From NCBI RefSeq assembly GCF_026210795.1, contig NC_089434.1, positions 1,116,001 through 1,180,000 of the forward strand: a stretch of 64,000 nt of DNA, given 5' to 3'. Under the pieces are notes generated by a model, which ran no database searches, was not told where the DNA came from, and was given only the letters and a program-made list of their open reading frames with translations. Positions 15,425-62,110 of this stretch are shown here, piece by piece; within the stretch, counting starts at the first letter, position 1; each line of letters begins with the position of its first letter. A program made the translations under genes and the position numbers. The DNA comes from Rhizophagus irregularis. Taxonomy: Eukaryota; Glomeromycota; Glomeromycetes; Glomerales; Glomeraceae.

Positions 15425-16399
15425 CATATTCAATAGGAAGTATCAGGAACAGTGGTTTCTCTATGACCTTGTACAATTTGGAAGGCTAAACTACTATCAT
15501 ATGACTCTCCTTCCACATAAAAAGGTGGTTTACCATTTGATATAATTTCCCATAAAAGTACGCCTACACTGTATACGTCACTCTTCTTATTTAAAGAATA
15601 AAATCTATTACTGAAATTTTTTTGGATCCAAATAAGGATTACACCAAATAAATCTTTTTTCTTTTTAGTCAATGCTTCGATTCCTTTTCCAATTTAATAG
15701 TATCTTGATTGACTAATACATTATAAGAATGCTATAATAAGAAAATATAATATAAATTGTTAAGGTAAAATAATATAAATTGATGTAATAATATTTTATC
15801 AATAAATTGAATGAATTACCAAATCGCGATGTATTATGTCTTCATCATGCAAGCATGATACGGCACTAGCCAACTGAAAAGCAAGTTTAAGTTTATCTTC
15901 TCATGTAAGATTCTCGAAATTTCTTTCAAATAATTGTTAAGAGAATCACCATCAGCGTACTCCATTACTAAAAGATATTTCTTAATGCTGTTACTTTGAT
16001 TCTCTAAAATAATAAAGAATTTATCACTTTAAATAAATTATAATATAATAATACACATTATTTTTTTTTAAAAAATATTTTATTAATTAATTACCTTGAC
16101 CTGAAATAGTAAACTCCATAAAAGCTAATAATGTTATTATGGAAAGTAACTTCACGTTGAAGTTCAATCTATTTGAATTATACATAAAATAAATATGAAT
16201 ATAAATTATTTATTTACCAATACATATTTTATAATCACCTCATGATCAATATTAAGAAGAGATTTTAACGCAAAATATTGATACGATTTTTTCCAAACCG
16301 GTACCAATTTCTTGAATATTTTTTATATTCGTAATGTTTAATATGTTTTTTAGCAATAGCTTCATCTATCCACTTAAATAATTTGTTCATTTAAGACAT
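15425..16399 (-). pseudogene. TKL-type protein kinase, degenerate
   Basis: Read on the minus strand from an ATG at 16399 (followed after one codon by a stop, TAA). The order of pieces is that of a fungal TKL kinase: WIDEAIAKKHIKHYE N-terminal motif, a damaged P-loop (..IQEIGTG, then frameshifted), LKSLLNIDHE|, REVTFHNNIISFYGV, LLVMEYADGDSLNNYLKE, a frameshifted stretch whose correct frame ends SCLHDEDIIHRDL|, NVLVNQDTIKL, and finally SDVYSVGVLLWEIISNGKPPFY..VPDTS. The DFG segment is missing between IKL and KGIEALTKKKK. Donor/acceptor sites are still visible. Multiple frameshifts, an early stop and loss of the activation-loop start show it is dead. Same subfamily as the relic at 40321-42454. 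Confidence 0.85.
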
Positions 16400-21737: not shown

Positions 21738-23447
21738 TCAATTTTCTTTTCTTTGAAATATACTCAAAGAATTTAATAATCTACTAGTATAAATTGCTCC
21801 AGGGTGAGTTTTTATAGCATATTCAGGGCCAAGCTTCCTTTTTTCTATTAATTTTAGTCGTGTTGTTTCAGCTTCATAAAATTGGTCAATATCTTTTATC
21901 TTATGCACCCACATACCAATAGTTTTTCGAATTTCTTTTATATGTGGTCTTTTTGAAGAATCAGAATCCCAACATTTTTTCATTAAATTAGCAAAACATT
22001 CAGGAGTATCATTTGTTATTTCAGGTTGCTTTCCATCAATAATTTCAAGAATAAGATCAGTATAGGACCCGAAATATATATATAGAAAGGTCGGAGGCAG
22101 CCAAAAAATTTTTACTAATAGCTGTGCGCATTCTTTCAGGGCAGGAATTATGATAATTTTGGCGAGTGATCAAAAAAGGAAATATCTTTTCACCGGGAAT
22201 TATCTAAAAAAGGAAAGATTTTCATGATTTTTTTTGGCTGGTTGTACAAACTCGGATCTGACCTTTTTATGGGTCCTATCAGTATCATGTTCAGAATCAG
22301 CGAAAGGTTTACAACCTGAAGTTAATTCCCACATAATCATACCCATACTATAAATATCCGATTCTTTTGAAAATGCTTTATCAATAAATATTTCTGGAGC
22401 AACATAAGGTATTACTCCATATATATTGTTATTTGATGAAGTTATATTTACAGGGCATGAATAATCCTAAGTCTCCAATGTGCCATTTATGACTTGTAGA
22501 GTATTCATTTTTGACTGATATATTTCCGCTATGTAAATCTCTATGTATATAATTCTCTTCATGAATGCAATCAACTCTAAGACAAAGCAATAAAGTTAAT
22601 TAACATTATATAATAACTAATAATAATTAATAAATAAATACCCTCTTAAAATTTCTAATATAATGGCCAACTTGACATTCCATGTAATATCTTTAAAGCA
22701 ATAATTATGTAAATCTCCTCCATTTGCATATTGCATTATTATCATATGGTCTCGTGTTTCAGGATCTTGTGTAATGCCATAATATTTAATAATATATTCA
22801 AATCTATTATGATATTGATCAAATGATTTTAACTAATATATAAGGTAGTTGTTGGTTAATTTAATTAGGTAATACTGTAATAGAAATAAAAGATTAACTT
22901 TACATATTTACCTCATTAATAAAATCTTTACTGATATCCTGTGAATTTAAAAATTTTTTTGCAGCAACAATACTACTACTATATGATTCTAAACTTTTAT
23001 TATTCCAAGTTGCTTTATAAATAATACTGAATCCTCCTCCTGCTATTTTTTCAAAATCTTCAGTTTCAGAATACAACTAATTTTAACTTTATTTTTAATG
23101 AACTCATATATTTTTAATGTACTATTCATATATTTAGCAAGTAGAATCAAGAAATTCATCTATATTATGATTTCCATTAATACTAATAGGTTCCACTCTT
23201 TTACATTTTATACATTGAGATTGGATTGTAAACCCAAAAGTAATATTTGTTGTTAAACAATATCCACATCAAATTATAAAACAATGCAAACACCATTTTT
23301 GACGGTGAGATTTATATTTAAAATATTCTCCACAAGTTATACAATTACTAGATGTATCCCACCAAGGTAGATATAGAATTAGAATTTTTGTTTAGTTAAA
23401 ATTGATTCTGTATATCCAGAAGAAACTGAATAACAATCCAAACACAT
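21738..23447 (-). pseudogene. TKL-type protein kinase with Cys-rich N-terminus, degenerate
   Basis: Minus strand, possible start ATG at 23447 (MCLDCYSVSSGYTESILTKQ). Next comes a Cys-rich stretch (NCITCGEYFKYKSHRQKWCLHC) interrupted by a TGA, then IDEFLDST, P-loop AGGGFSIIYKATW, lysine strand VAAKKFL, exon end ISKDFINE|, YYGITQDPETRDHMIIMQYANGGDL, intron, IHEENYIHRDLHSGN (intact HRD), GDLGL (DFG position), a frameshift, then IYGVIPYVAPEIF, SDIYSMGMIMWELTSG, the MITE at 22064-22277, and DLILEIIDGKQPEITN..KKCWDSDSSKRP to the end at 21738. Stops, frameshift and the MITE show it is dead, though the catalytic residues survive. Confidence 0.88.
22064..22277. mobile_element. MITE of the AGGACC family, copy 3, in a kinase relic
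   Basis: 214 bp, left end AGGACCCGAAATATATATAT, right end CTTTTTATGGGTCCT, 8-bp duplications ATCAGTAT at 22056-22063 and 22278-22285. It interrupts the kinase relic between codons for ..FADSEHD and LILEII..; omitting the MITE and one duplication leaves the kinase frame continuous. Shares the internal AATTATCTAAAAAAGGAAAGATTTTC word with copies 1 and 2. Confidence 0.92.
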
Positions 23448-26003: not shown

Positions 26004-29000
26004 ATGTCATCTCAAGATGATATTATATGTAAAAGCTGTGATAAAATATGTACAAATATTATGTTTAAATGGTGTAGACCATGTGCAATAAATAACTTAA
26101 AAAAAAATTTCACGAACTGGACTAGTGGAAATGAAAAGATTGATGATTTTATTCAAAAAATGCAATTAAAAATTGAAAGTTATGATGATATAATTGTTGA
26201 ATGGATACCTTATGACCAATTTAATAATGTTAAAAAAACAAATAAAAATGGTTTTGCTACAGCAATATGGAAGGATGGTTTATTAGAATATAATGAAGAA
26301 GAAATGAAACGTATAAGAATATCTAATATAGAAGTTTCTTTAAAATGCTTGATCAATTCACAAAATGTTATTAATGAATTTTCAAATGAGGTATGAAATT
26401 TTTATTTTTTGTAATTTAACCTTTAAAAATAACTTTATTATAACAACTTTTATATTTAAAAGGCCAAAGCATATTCCATTAAATACAGTAAACTACATAA
26501 ATATAACCTTGATATAATGGATGGTATTCCTAAAATATATGGAATATCCCAAAATCCAGATACAAATGATTATATTGTAGTACTTAATAATAGTTATTGT
26601 AAAGAATGTAGTGAAATATATATAGAAATATGGTCAAAATGGTGTAGACCATGTCAAATAAATAATTTAGAATTAAATCATAGTGGAAATAAAAAAATTG
26701 ATGAATTCATTCAAGAAATGCAATTGAAAATTGAAAAATCTAGTGATATAATTGTTGAATGGATACCTTATAACCAATTCAATAATGTTAAAAAAATAGG
26801 CAAAGATGGCTTTGCTACAGCAATATGGAAGAATGGTCCATTAGAATATAATTATAATAAAGAAAAGCATAAGTATGAAAGAAAATCTAATAAAAAAGTC
26901 ACTTTAAAATGCTTGAATAATTCTCAAAATGTTATTAGTAACTTGTTAAATGAGGTATGAAACTTCTACTTTTTGTAATTTAACCTTTAAAAGTACTTTA
27001 TTATAACAACTTTTATATTTAACAGGCTAAAACATATTCCATTGAAAAATATAAACTTGATATTCCTGAAATATATGGAATATCCCAAAATCCAGATACA
27101 AAAGATTATATTATAATTCTTTGTGGTTTTTGTGAAAATTGTGGTGAAATATACATAAATATATATTGTCAATTTTGTAAATCATGTTATTTAATACAAA
27201 ATTTTGCTAAATGGACTAGTGGGAATGAAAAAATTGATGAACTTATTCAAGAAATGCAATTAAAAATTGAAAAATCTAGTGATATAATTGTTGAATGGAT
27301 ACCTTATAACCAGTTTTATATTATTAAAGAAATAAGCAAAAATAATTTTGCTAGATTATATTTGGCAATATGGAAAGATGGTTCATTAATATATAATTTC
27401 AATAAAAAAAAGGGTATTTATGAAAGAAGTTCTAATAAAGAAGTCATTTTAAAATGCTTGAATAATTCACAAAGTGTCATTAATGACTTATTGAATGAGG
27501 TATTGAGACTTCTAATTTTTTTGTAATTTAATCCTTAAAAGCACTTTATTACAACAACTTTTATATTAAACAGGTTAAAGCATATCCCATTAAAAGAAGT
27601 GAATATAAATATGATATTCCTAAAATATGTGGAATATCCCAAAATCCAAATACAAGTGAATATATTATTGTATTTAAAGATGGTCATTATTGCAAAAACT
27701 GTGGTAAAATATATACAAAGATAAGTTTAGAATGGTGTAAACTATGTCATATAAATGGTTTAAGACAAAATTTTGTAAATTGGACTAGTGGGAATGAAAA
27801 AATTGACAATTTTATTCAAAAAACGCAATTAAAAATTAACAATTATAATGATACAATTGTTGAATGGATACCATATAACCAGTTTAATAATATTAAAGAA
27901 ATAGGTAAAGGTGGATTTGCTACAGTCTATTTAGCAATATGGAAAGATGGCCCATTAGATTATCAATTTGATGATAATAAACATATAAGAACACCTAATA
28001 GAGAAGTTGCTTTAAAATGCTTACATAATTCACAAAATATAACTAATGAATTTTTAAATGAGGTATGAAATTTATTTTTTTAGACTTCATTAAACACTTC
28101 TCAATAATAATTGTTTTTACTTTTTGATAGGTTAATGCATACTCTATTAGTAATAATAATGGAATTCTTAGAATATATGGAATATCCCAAAATCCAGATA
28201 CAAATAACTATATTATTGTACTTGAATATGCAAATGGTGGAAATCTTGATAATTACAATAATAATATCATTAGGAATCATAATTGGATTAGAAAATTAGA
28301 TGTATTAAGTAATATTGTTAGAGGTCTTAACATAATTCATGAAAATAAAGTAGTTCATCGTGATTTCCATACAGGAAATATATTGGTATCATTTAGTTAT
28401 AACAATTCTGATGGCTTTACTGGAGATTCTTCTAGTCATATATATATTTCAGATATGGGATTATGTGGAGAAGTTAGTAATATAGACAAAACAAAAATTT
28501 ATGGAGTTATGCCATTTGTAGCTCCTGAAGTATTAAGAGGAAAGCCATATAATCAAGCAGCAGATGTATATAGTTTTGGTATGATTATGTATCATATTGC
28601 AACTGGAAGACAACCTTTTGCCAATTGTGCTCATGATAGTATTTTAGCATTAAATATATGTAATGGAATTAGACCTGAAATAAATGAACAAGAAGCACCA
28701 AAATTTTATATTGATTTAATGAAAAATTGTTGGGATCCAGATCCAGATAAGAGACCAAGTGCTATTGAAATATATGAACTCAATAATTTGTTTCATAGTT
28801 CTATTTTTGAAAGTAAAGATAATGAAATTAAAAAGCAAATTAAAAAAGCGGATGAATATAGAAAAGCAAATTTTTTATCTACTGGAAATGGTCAATCAAT
28901 TCATCCACAAGCTTGTTATACTTCTCGATTACTCAATCAATTTACAAAAGATCTTTCAAAAGATGTTACTGATTGTTTAGACTGTATGATTAATGATTGA
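26004..29000 (+). CDS. TKL-type protein kinase with four tandem Cys-rich/N-lobe exons
   Basis: Five exons, all introns phase 0: 26004-26390, 26463-26954, 27026-27499, 27574-28062, 28131-29000; 903 residues, fully open. Exons 1-4 each encode a C-x2-C...C-x2-C module, WTSGNEKID, a VEWIPYNQF motif and a kinase N-lobe ending at the beta-3 Lys (xxLKC). Exons 2-4 also begin with the segment that opens exon 5 (YGISQNP.T..YII). Only module 4 keeps a complete glycine loop (GKGGFATVYLA, ~562-572; Lys ~599); modules 1-2 lack three residues there. Exon 5 gives HRDFHTGN (HRD ~690), DMG in place of DFG (~722), APE (~745), DVYSFGMIM and CWDPDPDKRP. Probably a cytosolic Ser/Thr kinase; substrate unknown. Introns are nearly identical in sequence, so the duplication is fairly recent. 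Confidence 0.88.
26572..28190 (+). repeat. three tandem ~540-bp exon-intron duplications in the kinase gene
   Basis: The unit runs from the Cys-rich part of one exon, through the N-lobe, the phase-0 intron (GAG|GTATGAAA..TTATTATAACAACTTTTATATT..AG), to the YGISQNP segment of the next exon. Corresponding points recur at about 26572, 27108 and 27655, i.e. about 540-bp spacing. The coding frame and splice sites are kept in every copy. Confidence 0.85.
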
Positions 29001-29459: not shown

Positions 29460-29562
29460 CAGTTTATATGTATGATTTTGGTATAATTATATATTATATC
29501 GCAATTAGAAGATAATCTTTTTGCAAATTGCGTTCATAATAATAGTTTTAGCAACTAGTGTA
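29460..29562 (+). pseudogene. kinase C-lobe fragment
   Basis: Reads YMYDFGIIIYYIAIRR, stop, SFCKLRS, matching DVYSFGMIMYHIATGRQPFANCAHDS of the gene just upstream (28565-28640). Stops and truncation show it is a relic, probably left by a partial duplication of that gene. Confidence 0.65.
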
Positions 29563-30103: not shown

Positions 30104-30485
30104 TATGGAAAGCCGTCCTTGACAAAAGGTTGATATCCAGACATCATGTTGGATAATGTCTAGACATCATGTTTGATATATGTAGAATAATGTTTGTACA
30201 TCATTCAACATGATGCTCAAGCATCAACCGACATGATGTCTTAGACATGTTACCAAATATAGTAAATTTTATTTTGTGTAACTCATAAATATACTATATT
30301 TGGTAATTTGATCAGCATGATGTCTAGACATCATGTCGGTTGATGTCTTTCACATCATGTTAAATAATGTACAAACATCATCCTACATATATCAAACATA
30401 ATGTCTAGACATACCATCATGATGTCTAAATATTATATTTCATGATGTTTGGACATCAACCTTTTGTCAAGGACGGCTTTCCATA
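30104..30485. mobile_element. long-arm foldback element, 382 bp
   Basis: The ends TATGGAAAGCCGTCCTTGAC / GTCAAGGACGGCTTTCCATA pair and the complementarity continues inward almost to the centre (..ACCAAATATAGTA / TACTATATTTGGTA.. near 30253-30305). The arms are made of many ACATGATGTCTAGACATCAT words that are themselves palindromic. Flanking CTGGTC is present on both sides (30098-30103, 30486-30491); because the adjacent TA is ambiguous, the duplication could be 6 to 8 bp. No ORF. Mobilised in trans if mobile at all. Confidence 0.85.
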
Positions 30486-40320: not shown

Positions 40321-42454
40321 TTATTCTAATCTATTTTGAGCTTCTTGAACTCCTTGTTCAGCTGATTTTTTGTACCAATAAATAGCTTTATCTATATTTT
40401 TAATAATTCCTTCTTCATATTCATACATGGTAGCAAGATTATATTGAGCTAAACTGTTTCCTAAATCTGCTGCCTTTTGATATAATTCAAATGCTTTTTA
40501 CTTATCAATATTAGTACCAAATCCATTTTTATAACAATATCCTAAATTATTTATTCCAAAAGGATTTCCTAAATCTGCTACCTTCTGATATAATTTAAAT
40601 GCTTTTTGATAATCAATATCAATTCCAATTCCATTTTCATAACAATATCCTAAATGATTTATTCCATATGAATTTCCTAAATCTGCTGCTTTTTGAAATG
40701 ATTCAAATGCTTTTTTATTATCAATATCAGTTTCAATTCCATTTAGTTAACAATATCCTAAACTGCACATTCCAGATGAATTTCCTAAGTCTGTTGCCTT
40801 TTGATATAATTTAATAGTTAATGATATGATTAATTTTGATATTGATAATATTGAAGTAGGGAAACAAAAATTTCCAACTTATCTTAATAGCCGTAATCTA
40901 ACTTTACAAGAGTTTAATAATTTATTATTAAATAACCAAAATAATTCAAATTCTCTTGCCTTACTTGGAGATTTTAATTTTCTTGGACTTGGAATTGGTA
41001 TTAATAAGTCAAAAGCATTTGTATCAAAGTTATTCTCAAATTGGTTACTTGATGACATCAAAGATTCTATTTCTTTTGTATTCATCATATTGAAGTTTTG
41101 AATGACTTGAGACATGTAATGAATCAATATTTTCAGAAATTTTACCATCCAAAATTGGCTGCTGATTATTAGATGATTGTGTAATATTATTATCATTAAA
41201 TAAGTGAAAGTCTTTAATAATTATATTTTCTTTTTTTATAATTTCTTTTAATCTATCAAACACTTTGTTGATAAATGGACGATCATCAGGTTCAATATTC
41301 CAACAATCTATAAAAAATATATATTAATTGAAATTTGTATTTTATTTTTAAATCATAGGTTTAAATAGTATTTACCAGTATAAATTTTTATATATTCTTC
41401 AGGTGTATCAGGAATGGATATCTCTCTAAGACCTTGCAAAATTTCTATAGCCAAACCGAGATCATTCAATTCATTACAAAAAGGTGGTCGTCCACTAGAA
41501 ATTTCCCATAAGAGTATGCCAATACTGTAAACATCACTCTGGCTCGTTTAATGAGTATACTTCCGGTTGGTTATTGTTAATATTTCTTCTTCTATTGAAT
41601 ATTTTTGGATCAACATAAGTAATCATTCCAAATACTTTTGATTGAAGATTGGATGATTCCTCAATCCTTTTTGAAAGTCCAAAATCGGCTAACTTAACAG
41701 TATTCTGATGAACTAATATATTTTTGGAGTGCTATTATTAAGTATATAAGATTAAACTAAGATAAAATGAGCATTAAATAAAAAATAATTATAATAAATC
41801 ATAAATTGATTAATTACCAAATCACGGTGCACGATTTCTTCACCATGTAAGCATGATACTGCATAAACCAGTTTGAAATGCAAAGACTAAATTTATCGTT
41901 CCAAGTAAGATTTTCAAAATTTTCTTTCAAATAATCTCGCAGTGCACCACCGTTAGCATATTCTATTACCAACGAATATTCTTTGATTTGATTTCTTTTA
42001 AAAGAAAACAGACAAGTTAATTAATGATTATATGTTAAAAAATGATTATTGAAAACTTATCATATCCCTACTGAAAGTTGTCACGCCATAAAAACGGATA
42101 GCATTATCATAAAAATCAACTTCACGATGATGTTGAATCTAAATAAAAAAATAATTTTTTATTAGAAATGTAAATATTATAATAATTAAAAATTTCTTTT
42201 TTTTATATTATAATTACCTCACGAACAATCGCTTTAATTGTAGCATCATTTAAATTATAAAAAGATTTAAGTGCACAACATTTATGAGAATCCTTCCAAT
42301 CTGCACGATAAACTTTTCCGAAGCCTCCAGAGCCAATTTCTTGAAGATTATAAAATTGGCCAAATTCATAAAATTTAATAAGTTTTTTAGAAATTGCTTC
42401 TTCTATCCAATCACACTCATTTGAATTATTAATAAGTTCAGTGTTATTAGACAT
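40321..42454 (-). pseudogene. TKL protein kinase-Sel1 repeat fusion, degenerate
   Basis: Start ATG at 42454 (MSNNTELINNSNECDWIEEA). Exon 1 to 42218 contains the intact glycine loop IGSGGFGKVYRADW and ALKSFYNL, ending REV|. Then HHREVDFYDNAIRFYGV, a frameshifted C-lobe start (correct frame ..SCLHGEEIVHRDL|), [20 protein letters not shown], a frameshift at about 41540, [33 protein letters not shown]|, CWNIEPDDRPFINKVFDRLK, a frameshift near 41050, then four or more Sel1 repeats (AFKLYQKVADLGNPFGINNLGYCYKNG-type, ~36 residues each) with TAA stops at 40498-40500 and near 40748. Kinase-Sel1 fusions are common in these fungi. Key residues persist, but at least three frameshifts and two stops make it a pseudogene. 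Confidence 0.9.
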
Positions 42455-43770: not shown

Positions 43771-46700
43771 ATTTATTTTTTATAAATGATATAATCCATT
43801 ATCCGCAGCGGAAAGTACATTATAGCTGTAACTTAAATATGGAATAAAAAATTTCTCTTATTATAGTATGCAGTATTTCAGTGCATGACCAAAATCATCC
43901 TTTAATAGATTAATAATAAATTAAACCAAATTATGTGTTAAAATTCTTTTGAAAAATCAAAAAAAAAGAGGAAACCATTGAATTTGAGTTAATAACGTTT
44001 AGAGTTTTTGAAGGTATGTTTTTCTTCAGCTACCATAGGATATATTTTCCAATTACAATTGGGATACGTCTTTTGTGGTGCTAATATAGTGTACTTACAG
44101 TAAATCGTAGGATATCAGCAAAGTAGTAATGGAATCGACATTAGTGATATTAGAAAATCAACTGGATATTTAAGAATAACTGGGAAAATAAATCTATTTT
44201 AGAAAAATTCTTCGTCTTTGCGTGGTTTCTGAATATTCATTTGGTGAAGCCTGGCCTGACCTGCTCAATGATAAATCTTAAAATTTGATGCTTGTTTCTT
44301 AGAAGAATTGTAATTTATTTACTTAAATATTACTCACGCATAATTTTTTAAAAAACTGATATTATATCGCTTTTAATAATTATGTACCATATTATTTGCA
44401 ATAATGTTCAGAAAATTCGGCCAACTTAAATCAATGATTCTCATATATTTTAGTATCTTTATTAAAGTTTTTAAGAGCTAAATAGTAAAATAGAGGACCC
44501 AAATATAAATAGTGATAAGTGAAGTGGATAGATAGGGTAACAAAACTAGGTAACGGGATCCGTTGTAATGTCCGAAGCACTCGTTTAAAATCATAAAATC
44601 TGATCACGTGATAATAATCAATAATACATCTTATTGGTTAATCACGCGTGCGGACAGACATACCTTGCATTACAATGTGTCTAACCGCTAACTACGCTTC
44701 GGACAATAAAAGAACGAATTATCAACATTTATCCAACTTTTTAATATGTATATTTATGATTTAAAAATGACCCAAATCTTCCTTATTTTATGTCAATAAG
44801 ATTTTCATTATACTATACCATAAACATTCCATTTTTATGTGACTAGCTTGATAAAACTTTATCCAAGCGAGTGATTTTAATCTATTTATTATATCCGTAC
44901 TTTTAAAATCAGATTTGGTATTGCATGATGACGTGTAATATACTAAATTAATTTTTTTATTTTACAAAAAATTGTTATCTGTTATAAAGATAATTGTAAT
45001 TAAAAATTTTGTCTTTTTTTTGTAAAATTTAATTAAAATAAGAAAATGTTCAATTTCCCTCACAAAATTATATTCTTTTTTTTTATTCAATGTTTTATTT
45101 TTACGAGCATTTGCAAAATATTGAATCTATAATTCTATAATCAAATTTATACAAGCAATAATAATTTATAGTCCAGATAAATATCGTTCTAATTAATCTT
45201 TTCATTATATTCCACACTTTATTGTGAAAGAATATACTCTATATCATTTTATTCATTTAATAAGTCTTTACGATTTGACTTTATTGCTCAATCACAAACT
45301 GATTTTGTTCATTTATAGTAAAAAAGTTTTATAATTACTAATTTGTTATTTTTCACTTTCATTTTCAATTGAAGCTCCTATAAAAAATTAAAATTAATTT
45401 AAAAGTTTTAACAAATTTTTTTTAATTTAAAAGAAAGTTTTTATTAGAAATAACATACTATGTAAAATCAATAACATCAACTGAAATTTGATTTATACTA
45501 AAATATATTTTATAATGTGGCTTATAAAAAAATTCTTATGATGACGTCTTATACATACTGTGCACGAAATAATTGCGGTACTGCGGTACTACGGCTAGAT
45601 TTTGGAAGATCTTTTGTAAATGAATCAAGTAATCGAGAAGTATTACAATGAATAGATGATTGGTCATTTTCAACAGCTGGAAGGATGTGATTTGAATCCT
45701 GGTTATAGGGAACAAGAATATTATAGAATTAAATGAAAATTTTCAGCTATATTATATAAAACGGAAATTTGGGTATAAAATAAATGATAATTTATATTTT
45801 ATACATATTTAAATCTAACGCTAATACGAGTTCTGTTCTTCGAAGTTCAAAGTTAAAGATAATGATCTTTGTTTTTTATCAAAATATGATAATTGCGGAT
45901 ACTATTTCATCTTTTTGGCGAACATACAATCTATAATATAAATCACAGATGTAACTGATCTTGACATGATATCTCAGTTGTTCGAGATACAACATCAATA
46001 ACATTTCAATTTACAACAACGTATATTTGTTTAGTTTGGCTATACCTGTGATAATAAAAAAGTTTGACTCATATGGTTGGCCACATCAGTAAAAATTTAT
46101 AGCCGATCATCAATTAATCCATGTGATATTGCCCACATACTATAATACCTATAATATTATTATTGTCTGGGCTATTAAAAAATAATCAATATCCGATATT
46201 AAATAATGTACAGTATATAGTTTATCCATTTAACTGATGCTATAAGCTATATCACGGTCAAATAATACATTCCCAAGTATGTAACACTTATTATGATACC
46301 TCTATTATCTGTAATGTATAAATCTGCGTCATTATATATAATTGCTGGAAAAGCTTATGCGGTGATAATTATATCGCTCAAAATTACTTGTAGCTAAATG
46401 TCCAAAGCAAAAATATAGTAAATATATCAATATCTATCCTTTACCAATATTAATTTACTTTAAATTTTATTATTTTTGATTATGATATTTTAGAAAAAAC
46501 TTGATAATTTTTTTTAATTAACTGTTAAGATTCATATTACAGTACAAGTTTCAGATCAATTAGCTTATGAATCAATTGATGTGACAAATGTGACTCATCT
46601 TTATAAATATAAATCTACAAATACATAATATGCCGATATGCTGATTTTTTACTGCAAAATATTATATAGGTTTACATTATATAAAGCTTATGTATAAGTC

Positions 46701-59720: not shown

Positions 59721-62110
59721 CTAAATATCTAGAAAAAAAAATTTTTATTAATAAGAAAGAAAATTTTGGCCGTTGTACCTTTAACTTCCGTTCACTTCCG
59801 TTCACATAAAAAAATAAAATTTACCATCGAGAGAATCCGATCCATCTTGTCTTTCAGAATGATATACTTCATCATCGTCGTCTTTATTACAATAAAATAA
59901 AAATTAATTTAAAATTATTATAATTATGATAAATACTATAAATATAAATACTGTATATTATGACATTTTTACTTTACCATCAAAATCCGATCCTTTTGTT
60001 TGTGGGTTTGATTTATTTTTATCATCGTTATTAACGTCTAAATAACGATCATTATTTACGTTAATAAATTTAATAAAACAATATCTGATATGATAATATT
60101 AACATTTTTTTACTTACCATTCTTTTTCTGTAATTTTTTAAGCATTTTAGTTAACTTTTTATTTTTGGCTAAAAATTCGAAATATAAAATATATCAGATA
60201 AATCATTACTTATAAAAAAATTTTACCAAAAAAAAAATATATATATATCAAATAAAATTACCCTTAAAAATCTTTGATATGCTTTTATTATTCTTATTGT
60301 TATCTTCTAGAAAAAAAGAAGAAAGATAAAAATTAATAATTAAGAATTTAATTATACAAATTATACAATAAATTCAATAAATTCAATAAAAAAATACTTA
60401 CTATTATTATATTCATGTAATTTACTATAAAACACTATAAAATAAAAATAATTTAATTTAATATTACCGTAAAATATATTAATATAATACCGTAAAAAAA
60501 ACGTATATATATATATCTATATTTACCTTTTATTTCATCTATTTATTTATTTATCATTAAAAGAAAAAAAAATTTGTTAATAATATATAATTGGAAAAAA
60601 AATAATATATATATATTTATTATATATTTACCTTCTGTTGCATTCCTTGGTTCAGGTAAATTTTCAAATTGATAAATCTTACTTGTAAATAATTTACTAT
60701 TTATACTATTACTTGCTTTATTTAATTTTAAATCATCATACATTTCTGTTTTAACAGAATCATCCGTTATACCTTGATAATATGAATTCATTTCTCTTAT
60801 TTTTTTCATAAGTGTAAAAAGATCAGGTCTTTTTAATGGATTAGCATCCCAACATTGTTCCATTAAATTTTTATATTCTACAGGAATTTTTAAAGTAACT
60901 TTTGGTCTTATACCATTAATAATATTAATTGCAAGATTATAATTATGACCATAATTTATAAATGGAGGATGACCAGATGAAATTTCCCACATTAATATTC
61001 CAATACTATAAATATCAGATTTAAAGGTATAATCAATTTCTTTAATAACCTCAGGTGCTATATAAGGAAGATTTCCATATATACATGATGAAGGTTTATT
61101 AGCGGGACCAGAAAATCCAAGATCACTAATATACCATTGATTATTAAGTTGTGAATATAAAATATTTCCTGAATGTAAATTTTTATGAATTGAATTTTCT
61201 TTATGAATAACATAAAGTGCTCTAATTATTTCAAAAGTAATATTAATTTTTTGTTTCCAATTAAGTTTATTATGATTCTGTTGTAAATATTTTCTTAAAT
61301 CTATATCCCTTATATCCATTACAAGCATATAATTTCTATTTGATATGTCTTGTGTTAAACCATAACATTTGACAATATCTGAATGTTTATTGCTTATAGA
61401 TAAATGTGATTTAGCCTATAAAAAAAAAAAAGAAATTTGTTAAATATTAAATAAAACATAAATTTTTAGAATTACAAAAGATTTTATTATTTACAAACCT
61501 CATCAAACCAACTTTGATTTGCACTTTCAATATTTTCTAATTTTTTAAGTACAACTTTTGTAATTAAATTTTGTATTCCAGGTCTTTCAACTCTTTTTAA
61601 TTGACGAATTTTAATATCCCATTCTTTATAACAACCACCAATCCAATCTGCAGTATAAATATCTGAATAACCATCTTTTGTTAAACATTTAATATTTTGT
61701 AATTTATTAAAAGGGATCCATTCAATTATCATTTGTGGATGAAGAATTTCCATTTGACATTTTTGTATTAAATTATCAATATTATTATTACCAGATGACC
61801 AATTTAAAAATTTTGATTTTAAATGATTTCTAATACAATATTCACAATATAATGTACCTAAACATTTTTCTTTACAATTTTCACATATCCTTTTTTTTCC
61901 TGAATTTTTAAGAATTTTTTCTCGATCATATTCTTTATTTAACCATTTTATTGCTTCAATTTTTTCAAATTTTGTAAGTGTATTATCATTATGTATTGTT
62001 TGTTTACGAAATTCATGTCTTTTATGTATGTCATTGTGAATATTAAAATCTGTTAATCCATGAGATCTAGTAATTGCTGCGGAAACGAATTTATCTCGAA
62101 TGTCAGACAT
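59721..62110 (-). CDS. TKL-type pseudokinase with microexon-encoded C-terminal tail
   Basis: Nine exons on the minus strand: 62110-61499, 61415-60632, 60538-60527, 60434-60402, 60306-60262, 60168-60118, 60037-59978, 59881-59825, 59728-59721; 553 residues. Residues 76-92 form a Cys cluster (CENCKEKC..CEYC). The kinase fold follows: WIPFNKLQNI, a degenerate glycine loop (KDGYSDIYTADW), VVLK (Lys ~189), YGLTQDISNRNYML, then IHKNLHSGN where the catalytic HRD Asp is replaced by Asn (~283), SDLG (~301-304) and PYIAPEV (~324). Loss of the catalytic Asp and loop glycines suggests a pseudokinase or scaffold. Exons 3-8 are 12, 33, 45, 51, 60 and 57 nt, all phase 1-1, encoding a Lys- then Asp-rich tail ending G-D-I-stop. 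All splice sites are GT-AG and the frame is intact. Confidence 0.87.

Follow-up and report, generated by a model that had tools for sequence, protein, structure and literature searches.

Tandem kinase N-lobes ahead of a single catalytic C-lobe: a predicted, genome-wide gene architecture in Rhizophagus irregularis

The Gene and Its Anatomy

The 64,000-nucleotide stretch of Rhizophagus irregularis DNA analyzed here (the "window") carries, at 26004-29000 on the forward strand, a five-exon gene, open from ATG to stop, whose spliced product of 903 amino acids (plus stop) would contain four copies of a cysteine-rich (Cys) module joined to a protein kinase N-lobe, followed by one catalytic C-lobe (Table 1). 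The introns are all GT-AG and phase 0, as the initial annotation had it, and every exon length is a multiple of three; the modules are likewise in tandem and in register, forming direct repeats with a spacing between exon ends of 564, 545, and 563 bp. The Cys/N-lobe parts of all four are 78-80% identical in DNA, which excludes chance as the source of their likeness, and exons 2-5 have an opening segment in common (direct-repeat family D3). We propose that this gene represents a large family in which a string of N-lobes that probably do not bind adenosine triphosphate (ATP) precedes one active kinase.

Table 1. Parts of the poly-N-lobe kinase gene, in window positions.
Feature	Position	Strand	Basis
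Whole coding region, poly-N-lobe kinase gene	26004..29000	+	gene model
Exon 1: initiator Met, Cys module 1, N-lobe 1 from beta1-beta3 into the start of helix C, V-Y-L missing from its loop	26004..26390	+	
Intron 1, GT-AG, phase 0, 72 nt	26391..26462	+	
Exon 2: N-lobe 1 end (beta4-beta5 and the last part of helix C), Cys module 2, N-lobe 2, V-Y-L missing from its loop	26463..26954	+	
Intron 2, GT-AG, phase 0, 71 nt	26955..27025	+	
Exon 3: N-lobe 2 end, Cys module 3, N-lobe 3; loop glycines gone	27026..27499	+	
Intron 3, GT-AG, phase 0, 74 nt	27500..27573	+	
Exon 4: N-lobe 3 end, Cys module 4, and the terminal N-lobe 4 with the AxK Ala and an intact loop, GKGGFATVYL	27574..28062	+	
Intron 4, GT-AG, phase 0, 68 nt; differs from introns 1-3	28063..28130	+	
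Exon 5: N-lobe 4 end, hinge, catalytic C-lobe (HRD, DMG, APE), C-terminal tail, stop	28131..29000	+	PF00069
Cys module 1 (CxxC..CxxC)	26028..26126	+	pattern
Cys module 2 (CxxC..CxxC)	26595..26678	+	pattern
Cys module 3 (CxxC..CxxC)	27128..27220	+	pattern
Cys module 4 (CxxC..CxxC)	27688..27789	+	pattern

Alignment of residues 34-119 of the spliced lobe to positions 4-79 of the PF07714 model, together with general kinase anatomy, places the exon boundary directly after the helix-C Glu, and the next exon brings the end of helix C, beta4, and beta5 (..YGISQNPDT..YIIVL). Exon n+1 is predicted to complete the N-lobe begun in exon n; each upstream lobe would be a whole N-lobe ending where the hinge and C-lobe would follow, and only lobe 4 would continue into a C-lobe. 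Exons 2-4 had been described as chimeras that open with the hinge segment of exon 5: the shared opening segment bears out the chimerism, and the segment itself goes beyond the hinge, supplying the end of helix C with beta4-beta5. Over the whole module (Cys part and N-lobe), lobes 1-3 can be aligned with lobe 4, and the claim that four N-lobes, each with the beta3 Lys, feed one C-lobe is upheld. So is the observation that the glycine loop is intact in the fourth lobe only, lobe 3 reading SKNNFARLYL and lobes 1 and 2 lacking exactly V-Y-L.

The introns form a series of their own: introns 1 and 2 are 93% identical in DNA, 2 and 3 are 90%, 1 and 3 are 80%, and intron 4 is 55-69% identical to them. 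Across 26391-27573 the first two of these pairs are closer than the modules between them, reflecting either faster divergence of the exons or homogenization of the introns.

Taken singly, exon 5 is the sole exon of the window gene to reach a Pfam cut-off, matching both PF00069 (E 4.2e-34) and PF07714 (E 1.1e-33) above it, and the solved sequence closest to it is the mixed-lineage kinase MAP3K9 (E 2.7e-22). Once spliced, lobe 4 scores 28.3 bits against PF07714 (cut-off 23.1). All nine spliced terminal lobes searched (those adjoining a C-lobe) match this family, the first at 28.3 bits, and a profile of nine terminal lobes against solved-structure sequences returned one kinase, EGFR (E 0.0001). 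Upstream lobes match PF07714 weakly (3/15, best E 0.017); because they fall under Pfam cut-offs, domain annotation likely misses them. The window gene has the glycine loop, beta3 Lys, helix-C Glu, HRD Asp, and DFG-type Asp (DMG for DFG), and we assign the terminal lobe and C-lobe to the protein kinase superfamily. Through their alignment to lobe 4, which matches PF07714, we also regard the upstream lobes as homologous to bona fide kinase N-lobes. A match of 8/15 upstream lobes to the Pfam family BCS1_N (best E 0.00023) was set aside as a cross-reaction because it lies under the cut-off where bits are shown and occurs in 5/9 terminal lobes too. The Cys modules, with their two CxxC pairs, are candidate zinc ribbons; the only matches in support are below-cut-off ones to PF08772 (NOB1 zinc ribbon) in exons 1 and 4.

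A Genome-Wide Family

With exon 4 as query we obtained at least 150 matches among 4,803 candidates, in at least 74 clusters, at least 40 of which had two or more. Four profile hidden Markov models (HMMs) were used to annotate 39 multi-match clusters and the window gene (40 loci). The usual pattern is a first exon, then chimeric exons, then a C-lobe exon, with longer gaps or split lobes in some. One C-lobe is present in 35 of the 40, behind three to nine N-lobes: three at one locus, four at 13, five at six, six at four, seven at eight, eight at one, and nine at two, the counts being minima for L023 and L032, where the first lobe stands at the start of the stretch. The other five loci are without a C-lobe; four of them (L006, L024, L029, L031) reach the end, or almost the end, of their stretch, and L027 has approximately 720 further bases with no C-lobe match. 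Under a strict rule, a phase-0 GT-AG intron was found at 188 of 225 lobe-to-hinge junctions, and none of these 188 modelled introns can be read through.

Two controls widened the family. Ten loci drawn at random from 34 single-match clusters yielded nine multi-lobe loci and one, L061, with a single lobe. A second draw took 18 from the 102 matches that were taken as C-lobe exons (139 matches in all): nine had three lobes in the 1.5 kb upstream, seven had one lobe, as did L044 together with a long gap, and L051 had a partial C-lobe match only. The nine three-lobe genes constitute a second subfamily, B, the set found with exon 4 being subfamily A. A subfamily B exon as query gave at least 150 matches in at least 58 clusters, none shared with the A set; the richest cluster had 12 matched modules as counted from the matches listed. 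Together the two queries account for at least 300 module matches in at least 132 clusters, at least 71 of them with two or more. Among the matches listed, 57/150 of subfamily A lie on C14 (55 in its first 1.25 Mb) and 73/150 of subfamily B on C2 (67 between 4.5 and 5.95 Mb). What the initial annotation described in one gene is, with good support from sequence, a genome-wide architecture and a large gene family, in two subfamilies, in this root-symbiotic fungus.

The catalytic residues are held across the family. The set found in the window gene occurs in 34-35 of the 35 subfamily A arrays; HRD Asp, catalytic Asn, and DFG-type Asp are found together in 34/35, the exception being L009, which is split there. 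When the C-lobes of 51 poly-lobe genes were aligned, HRD Asp was present in 50/51 and DFG-type Asp in 49/51. The CxxC..CxxC pattern is kept in 33/35 terminal and 175/187 upstream modules.

Where the ATP-Binding Residues Persist

Lobe columns were read from the full-length matches (216 of 235 at the 40 loci), and a four-residue ATP-pocket signature was defined as the second loop glycine, a Phe or Tyr, a Val/Ile/Thr, and the Ala of AxK. In the 51 genes with both kinds of lobe (42 terminal lobes of subfamily A and 9 of B), the signature is present in 49/51 terminal lobes (A 40/42, B 9/9) and in 1/188 upstream lobes (A 1/170, B 0/18; one control row, L044_1, was counted as upstream and its standing is uncertain). 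Drawing a random lobe per gene gave the signature in a mean of 8.7 and, in 20,000 draws, a maximum of 21 genes of subfamily A; for B the mean was 3.0 and the maximum 9, from nine genes with three lobes read in most. The same "last-lobe rule" is found in both subfamilies.

Residue by residue, both loop glycines are present in 35/35 terminal lobes, and the second is present in 13/148 upstream lobes of the C-lobe loci, Asp being its commonest replacement (67). What upstream lobes lose is the glycines, Phe, and Val of the loop together with the AxK Ala, and lobes 1-3 of the window gene are without the signature; the AxK Ala taken alone is still found in 41/170 upstream lobes of subfamily A, so that the rule does not hold in every residue. 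Other columns are kept: among 181 upstream lobes (loci without a C-lobe included), W25 is found in 181, E24 in 180, L74 in 179, W50 in 175, G53 in 175, and the beta3 Lys in 163, and the beta1 Glu-Trp persists in most. As a rule, each gene is predicted to have one ATP-competent lobe, the one adjoining the C-lobe, and by their residue signature the upstream lobes would not be ATP-binding kinase N-lobes.

Coding Constraint and Origin of the Arrays

Indels were scored in 31 alignments at 75% identity or more, out of 40 nearest-locus pairs that share loci. Upstream exons had 3.6 frameshifting indels per kb, terminal exons 5.3, the C-lobe exon 3.9, and introns 33.2, the corresponding substitution rates being 0.124, 0.136, 0.118, and 0.134; indel lengths were multiples of three in 274/531 coding and 39/233 intron cases. 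Omega, corrected for mutation bias with neutral rates and spectrum taken from introns, was 0.67 for upstream exons (bootstrap 0.59-0.81, 17 pairs), 0.65 for terminal exons (0.59-0.72, 17 pairs), and 0.73 for the C-lobe exon (0.63-0.89, 16 pairs), with overlapping ranges for all parts; a plain counting method gave 0.56 for upstream and 0.52 for terminal pairs. In the window gene itself, indels relative to L015 are multiples of three in exons 1-4 (the exon 5 gaps of 3, 3, 10, 5, and 1 are not scorable), and relative to L025 they are multiples of three in exons 2-5 (the exon 1 piece has no open frame and is not scorable). The upstream exons appear to be kept in frame, with a rate of amino-acid change about that of the catalytic exon. 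Positive selection was considered, since the nonsynonymous rate was near or above the synonymous rate in several recent pairs, and was dropped on the intron-calibrated omega of 0.65-0.73 everywhere; what these values suggest for these genes is fast evolution, not positive selection.

The initial annotation described a unit duplicated in tandem three times. A recent, local triplication did not survive comparison with L015, a paralogue on C14: lobes 1, 2, 3, and 4 of the window gene are nearest to lobes 1, 2, 3, and 4 of L015, respectively. Because each lobe pairs with its same-numbered counterpart, the four-lobe state would be older than the copying of the gene; the array was apparently inherited with the gene, and a four-lobe gene appears to have been copied between C14 and C6. 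A simple count of the motif puts the V-Y-L deletion in 26 lobes at 12 loci. The nearest relative of a terminal lobe is another terminal lobe in 33/35 cases; for upstream lobes it is a terminal lobe in 17/148 and a lobe of the same locus in 28/148.

A maximum-likelihood tree was made from 75 of 286 lobes with the loop and AxK columns left out, its bootstrap not settled. Subfamily A stands apart from B (100/99) and many other forks are open; upstream and terminal lobes are mixed within A and within B, and single-lobe genes fall outside the poly-lobe part of B. A single origin of all upstream lobes is disfavored by this separation, each subfamily having its own upstream and terminal lobes. We favor a history in which the N-lobe multiplied at least twice and the same residues were lost in parallel; concerted evolution or gene conversion within arrays could give the same tree. 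The single-lobe locus L061 (G000:C3:3882802-3886573) belongs to subfamily A, has one N-lobe in the stretch read, and groups with lobe 4 of the window gene; it may represent module loss or the ancestral state.

Discussion

We consider it somewhat better than an even bet that the window gene is one transcription unit encoding a single poly-N-lobe kinase, (Cys module + N-lobe) x4 and then a C-lobe, in which one active kinase is served by "ATP-dead" N-lobes, acting as modules for regulation or recognition. In this arrangement lobe 4 and the C-lobe would form an active tyrosine-kinase-like kinase; lobes 1-3, keeping the N-lobe scaffold without the ATP contacts, would not be enzyme halves; most likely they would work in cis, as modules in tandem that bind or regulate, recognizing partners or substrates or controlling the active half. 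New versions would come about as modules are gained, are lost, and diverge fast. One mRNA and one protein, folded upstream lobes, the loss of ATP binding, and the existence of binding targets are what we infer from the sequence. The earlier suggestion that the extra lobes have another role, as decoy or regulatory modules, stands insofar as they appear not to bind ATP, to be in frame, and to be constrained; which role they have is a more conditional matter. N-lobes are regulatory surfaces in other kinases, as in the helix-C contacts of EGFR-type dimers and the side-to-side dimers of RAF, and for this reason an array of them could have either effect. Its binding targets could be partners, substrates, or fellow kinases of the family, or it could hold the active lobe in check, and the data do not choose among these.

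More tentatively, and with the chances rather against it, one may suppose that at least two subfamilies have made a recognition array out of N-lobes, which, ATP-dead, fast-evolving, and exchangeable, would stand in strings before one catalytic core. The genes concerned would number over 100, perhaps several hundred, and would parallel, with kinase parts, the repeat-based recognition families used for symbiosis or for self/non-self sensing.

The strongest competitor, which we hold to be improbable, at about one chance in a handful, is that unequal exchange adds functionless N-lobe exons that decay as relics, with selection on the last lobe only. The loss of ATP residues upstream is what such decay would produce, as are the high omega across the whole gene and the broken lobes (19/235 matches not full length, some frame-split). 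Against it, frameshifting indels are as few in upstream exons as in the catalytic exon, approximately nine times fewer than in introns, the upstream omega is the same as that of the catalytic exon, and both the scaffold residues and the Cys pairs are retained; selection that did no more than hold the frame open could explain part of this, but not the equal omega. Decay is a poorer fit than a decoy or regulatory role, since the upstream lobes stay in frame, are similarly constrained, and lose the nucleotide-contact residues in particular.

A shade less probable again is a set of alternative cassettes, in which lobe exons are alternatively spliced, exon 1 or exons 1 and 4 being joined to exon 5 to give several isoforms. 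With exons that are multiples of three and introns in phase 0, any skip would keep the frame and join half lobe to half lobe. Alternative catalytic N-lobes should, however, keep their ATP residues, and 1/188 upstream lobes does.

We find it hard to credit that the last lobe and C-lobe are a normal single-lobe kinase with its own start, the upstream lobes belonging to other transcripts, even with single-lobe relatives on record (L061, and 7 of the 18 kinases sampled). First exons carry an in-frame Met before the Cys module in 29/34 cases, internal exons in 36/114, and terminal exons in 8/35; these counts take in a Met inside the hinge segment, and the Met of several terminal exons is part of beta5. 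Such a Met is absent from 27/35 terminal exons, exon 4 of the window gene included, and terminal exons follow a splice acceptor and open with the last part of another lobe. Most terminal exons would lack a start codon of their own that leaves the Cys module in the product, and some could have one. Tandem repeats are commonly misassembled, but misassembly of one unit is next to negligible here, given modules that are merely 78-80% identical, a pattern repeated at many independent loci, and an assembly described as built from Nanopore long reads and Hi-C (PMC10234402).

Several results weigh against our preferred reading of one polypeptide with non-catalytic upstream lobes. At L059 (G000:C1:5110988-5114855) lobe 2 has the signature and the terminal lobe lacks it, the sole such array, and the terminal lobe of L018 has Val for the AxK Ala. 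The strict splice rule failed at 37/225 junctions, many of them with a partial hinge match only. The Met-bearing terminal and internal exons could hold internal starts, and 5/34 first exons are without such a Met. The omega of 0.65-0.73 means weak constraint throughout the gene. An AlphaFold2 model from an alignment of the four window exons with exon 2 as first row was poor (predicted local distance difference test 48, predicted template modelling score 0.42), and a Foldseek search with it against the PDB gave no match at E <= 0.001; a profile of 15 upstream lobes against solved-structure sequences found no confident kinase (best kinase E 0.063).

We know of no described kinase in which the N-lobe alone is a repeat module. 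In Janus kinases (JAKs) a dead kinase part likewise lies N-terminal of an active one, which it controls; the JAK pseudokinase is a complete domain with both N- and C-lobe. MAP3K9 has a C-lobe of the same tyrosine-kinase-like type, but in an ordinary single kinase domain. The plant tandem kinase proteins (kinase-pseudokinase; Pm57, Lr9), as far as they are treated in the sections of PMC11153570 that concern them, also combine an active kinase with degenerate kinase parts in one protein, and there the degenerate part is proposed to be an integrated decoy; they repeat whole kinase domains (PMC11153570), whereas here the N-lobe (with its Cys module) alone is repeated, three to nine times in the annotated genes, before one C-lobe. 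Tandem kinases have at least two whole kinase domains per protein; each annotated array has one C-lobe.

Arbuscular mycorrhizal fungi are well known for a kinase expansion that is poorly explained. For R. irregularis, expansion of the tyrosine-kinase-like (PF07714) family has been published (PMC6123716, PMC8647823, PMC10234402), and 2,533 kinases have been counted (PMC10234402). Genome and family are the same as here, exon 5 matching PF00069/PF07714 and terminal lobes PF07714; the accounts differ from ours in covering, in the sections that deal with the expansion, gene numbers, transposon proximity, and gene age, not repeated N-lobes (PMC6123716, PMC8647823, PMC10234402). No description of repeated N-lobes was found in the open literature searched, most subscription papers lying outside its scope. 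Were a good part of the expansion to consist of poly-N-lobe genes, domain annotation would have missed most of the modules, and the last-lobe rule would offer a direct, testable handle on the function of these kinases.

Neighborhood of the Gene

A single-N-lobe kinase gene of the same kind lies elsewhere in the window, on the reverse strand at 60543-62110, with open frames at 61487-62110 and 60543-61328 and HMM matches. By eye its motifs read TKDGYSD for the loop, VVLK, and HKN for HRD, and it is probably a pseudokinase. Broken pieces of related kinases were detected by the lobe HMMs at 21765-23343, 41383-42391, and 15460-15666 (reverse strand). Just behind the poly-N-lobe gene, 29461-29560 looks by eye like part of the C-lobe exon and was not reported by the HMM or blastn scans. 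Approximately 1.1 kb behind the gene is a palindromic element (30104-30485) with 68-nt arms, 88% complementary, resembling a miniature inverted-repeat transposable element, and at 45600-45648, on the reverse strand, 49 bases match the 3' end of exon 5 (gene coordinates 2910-2958) at 88%.

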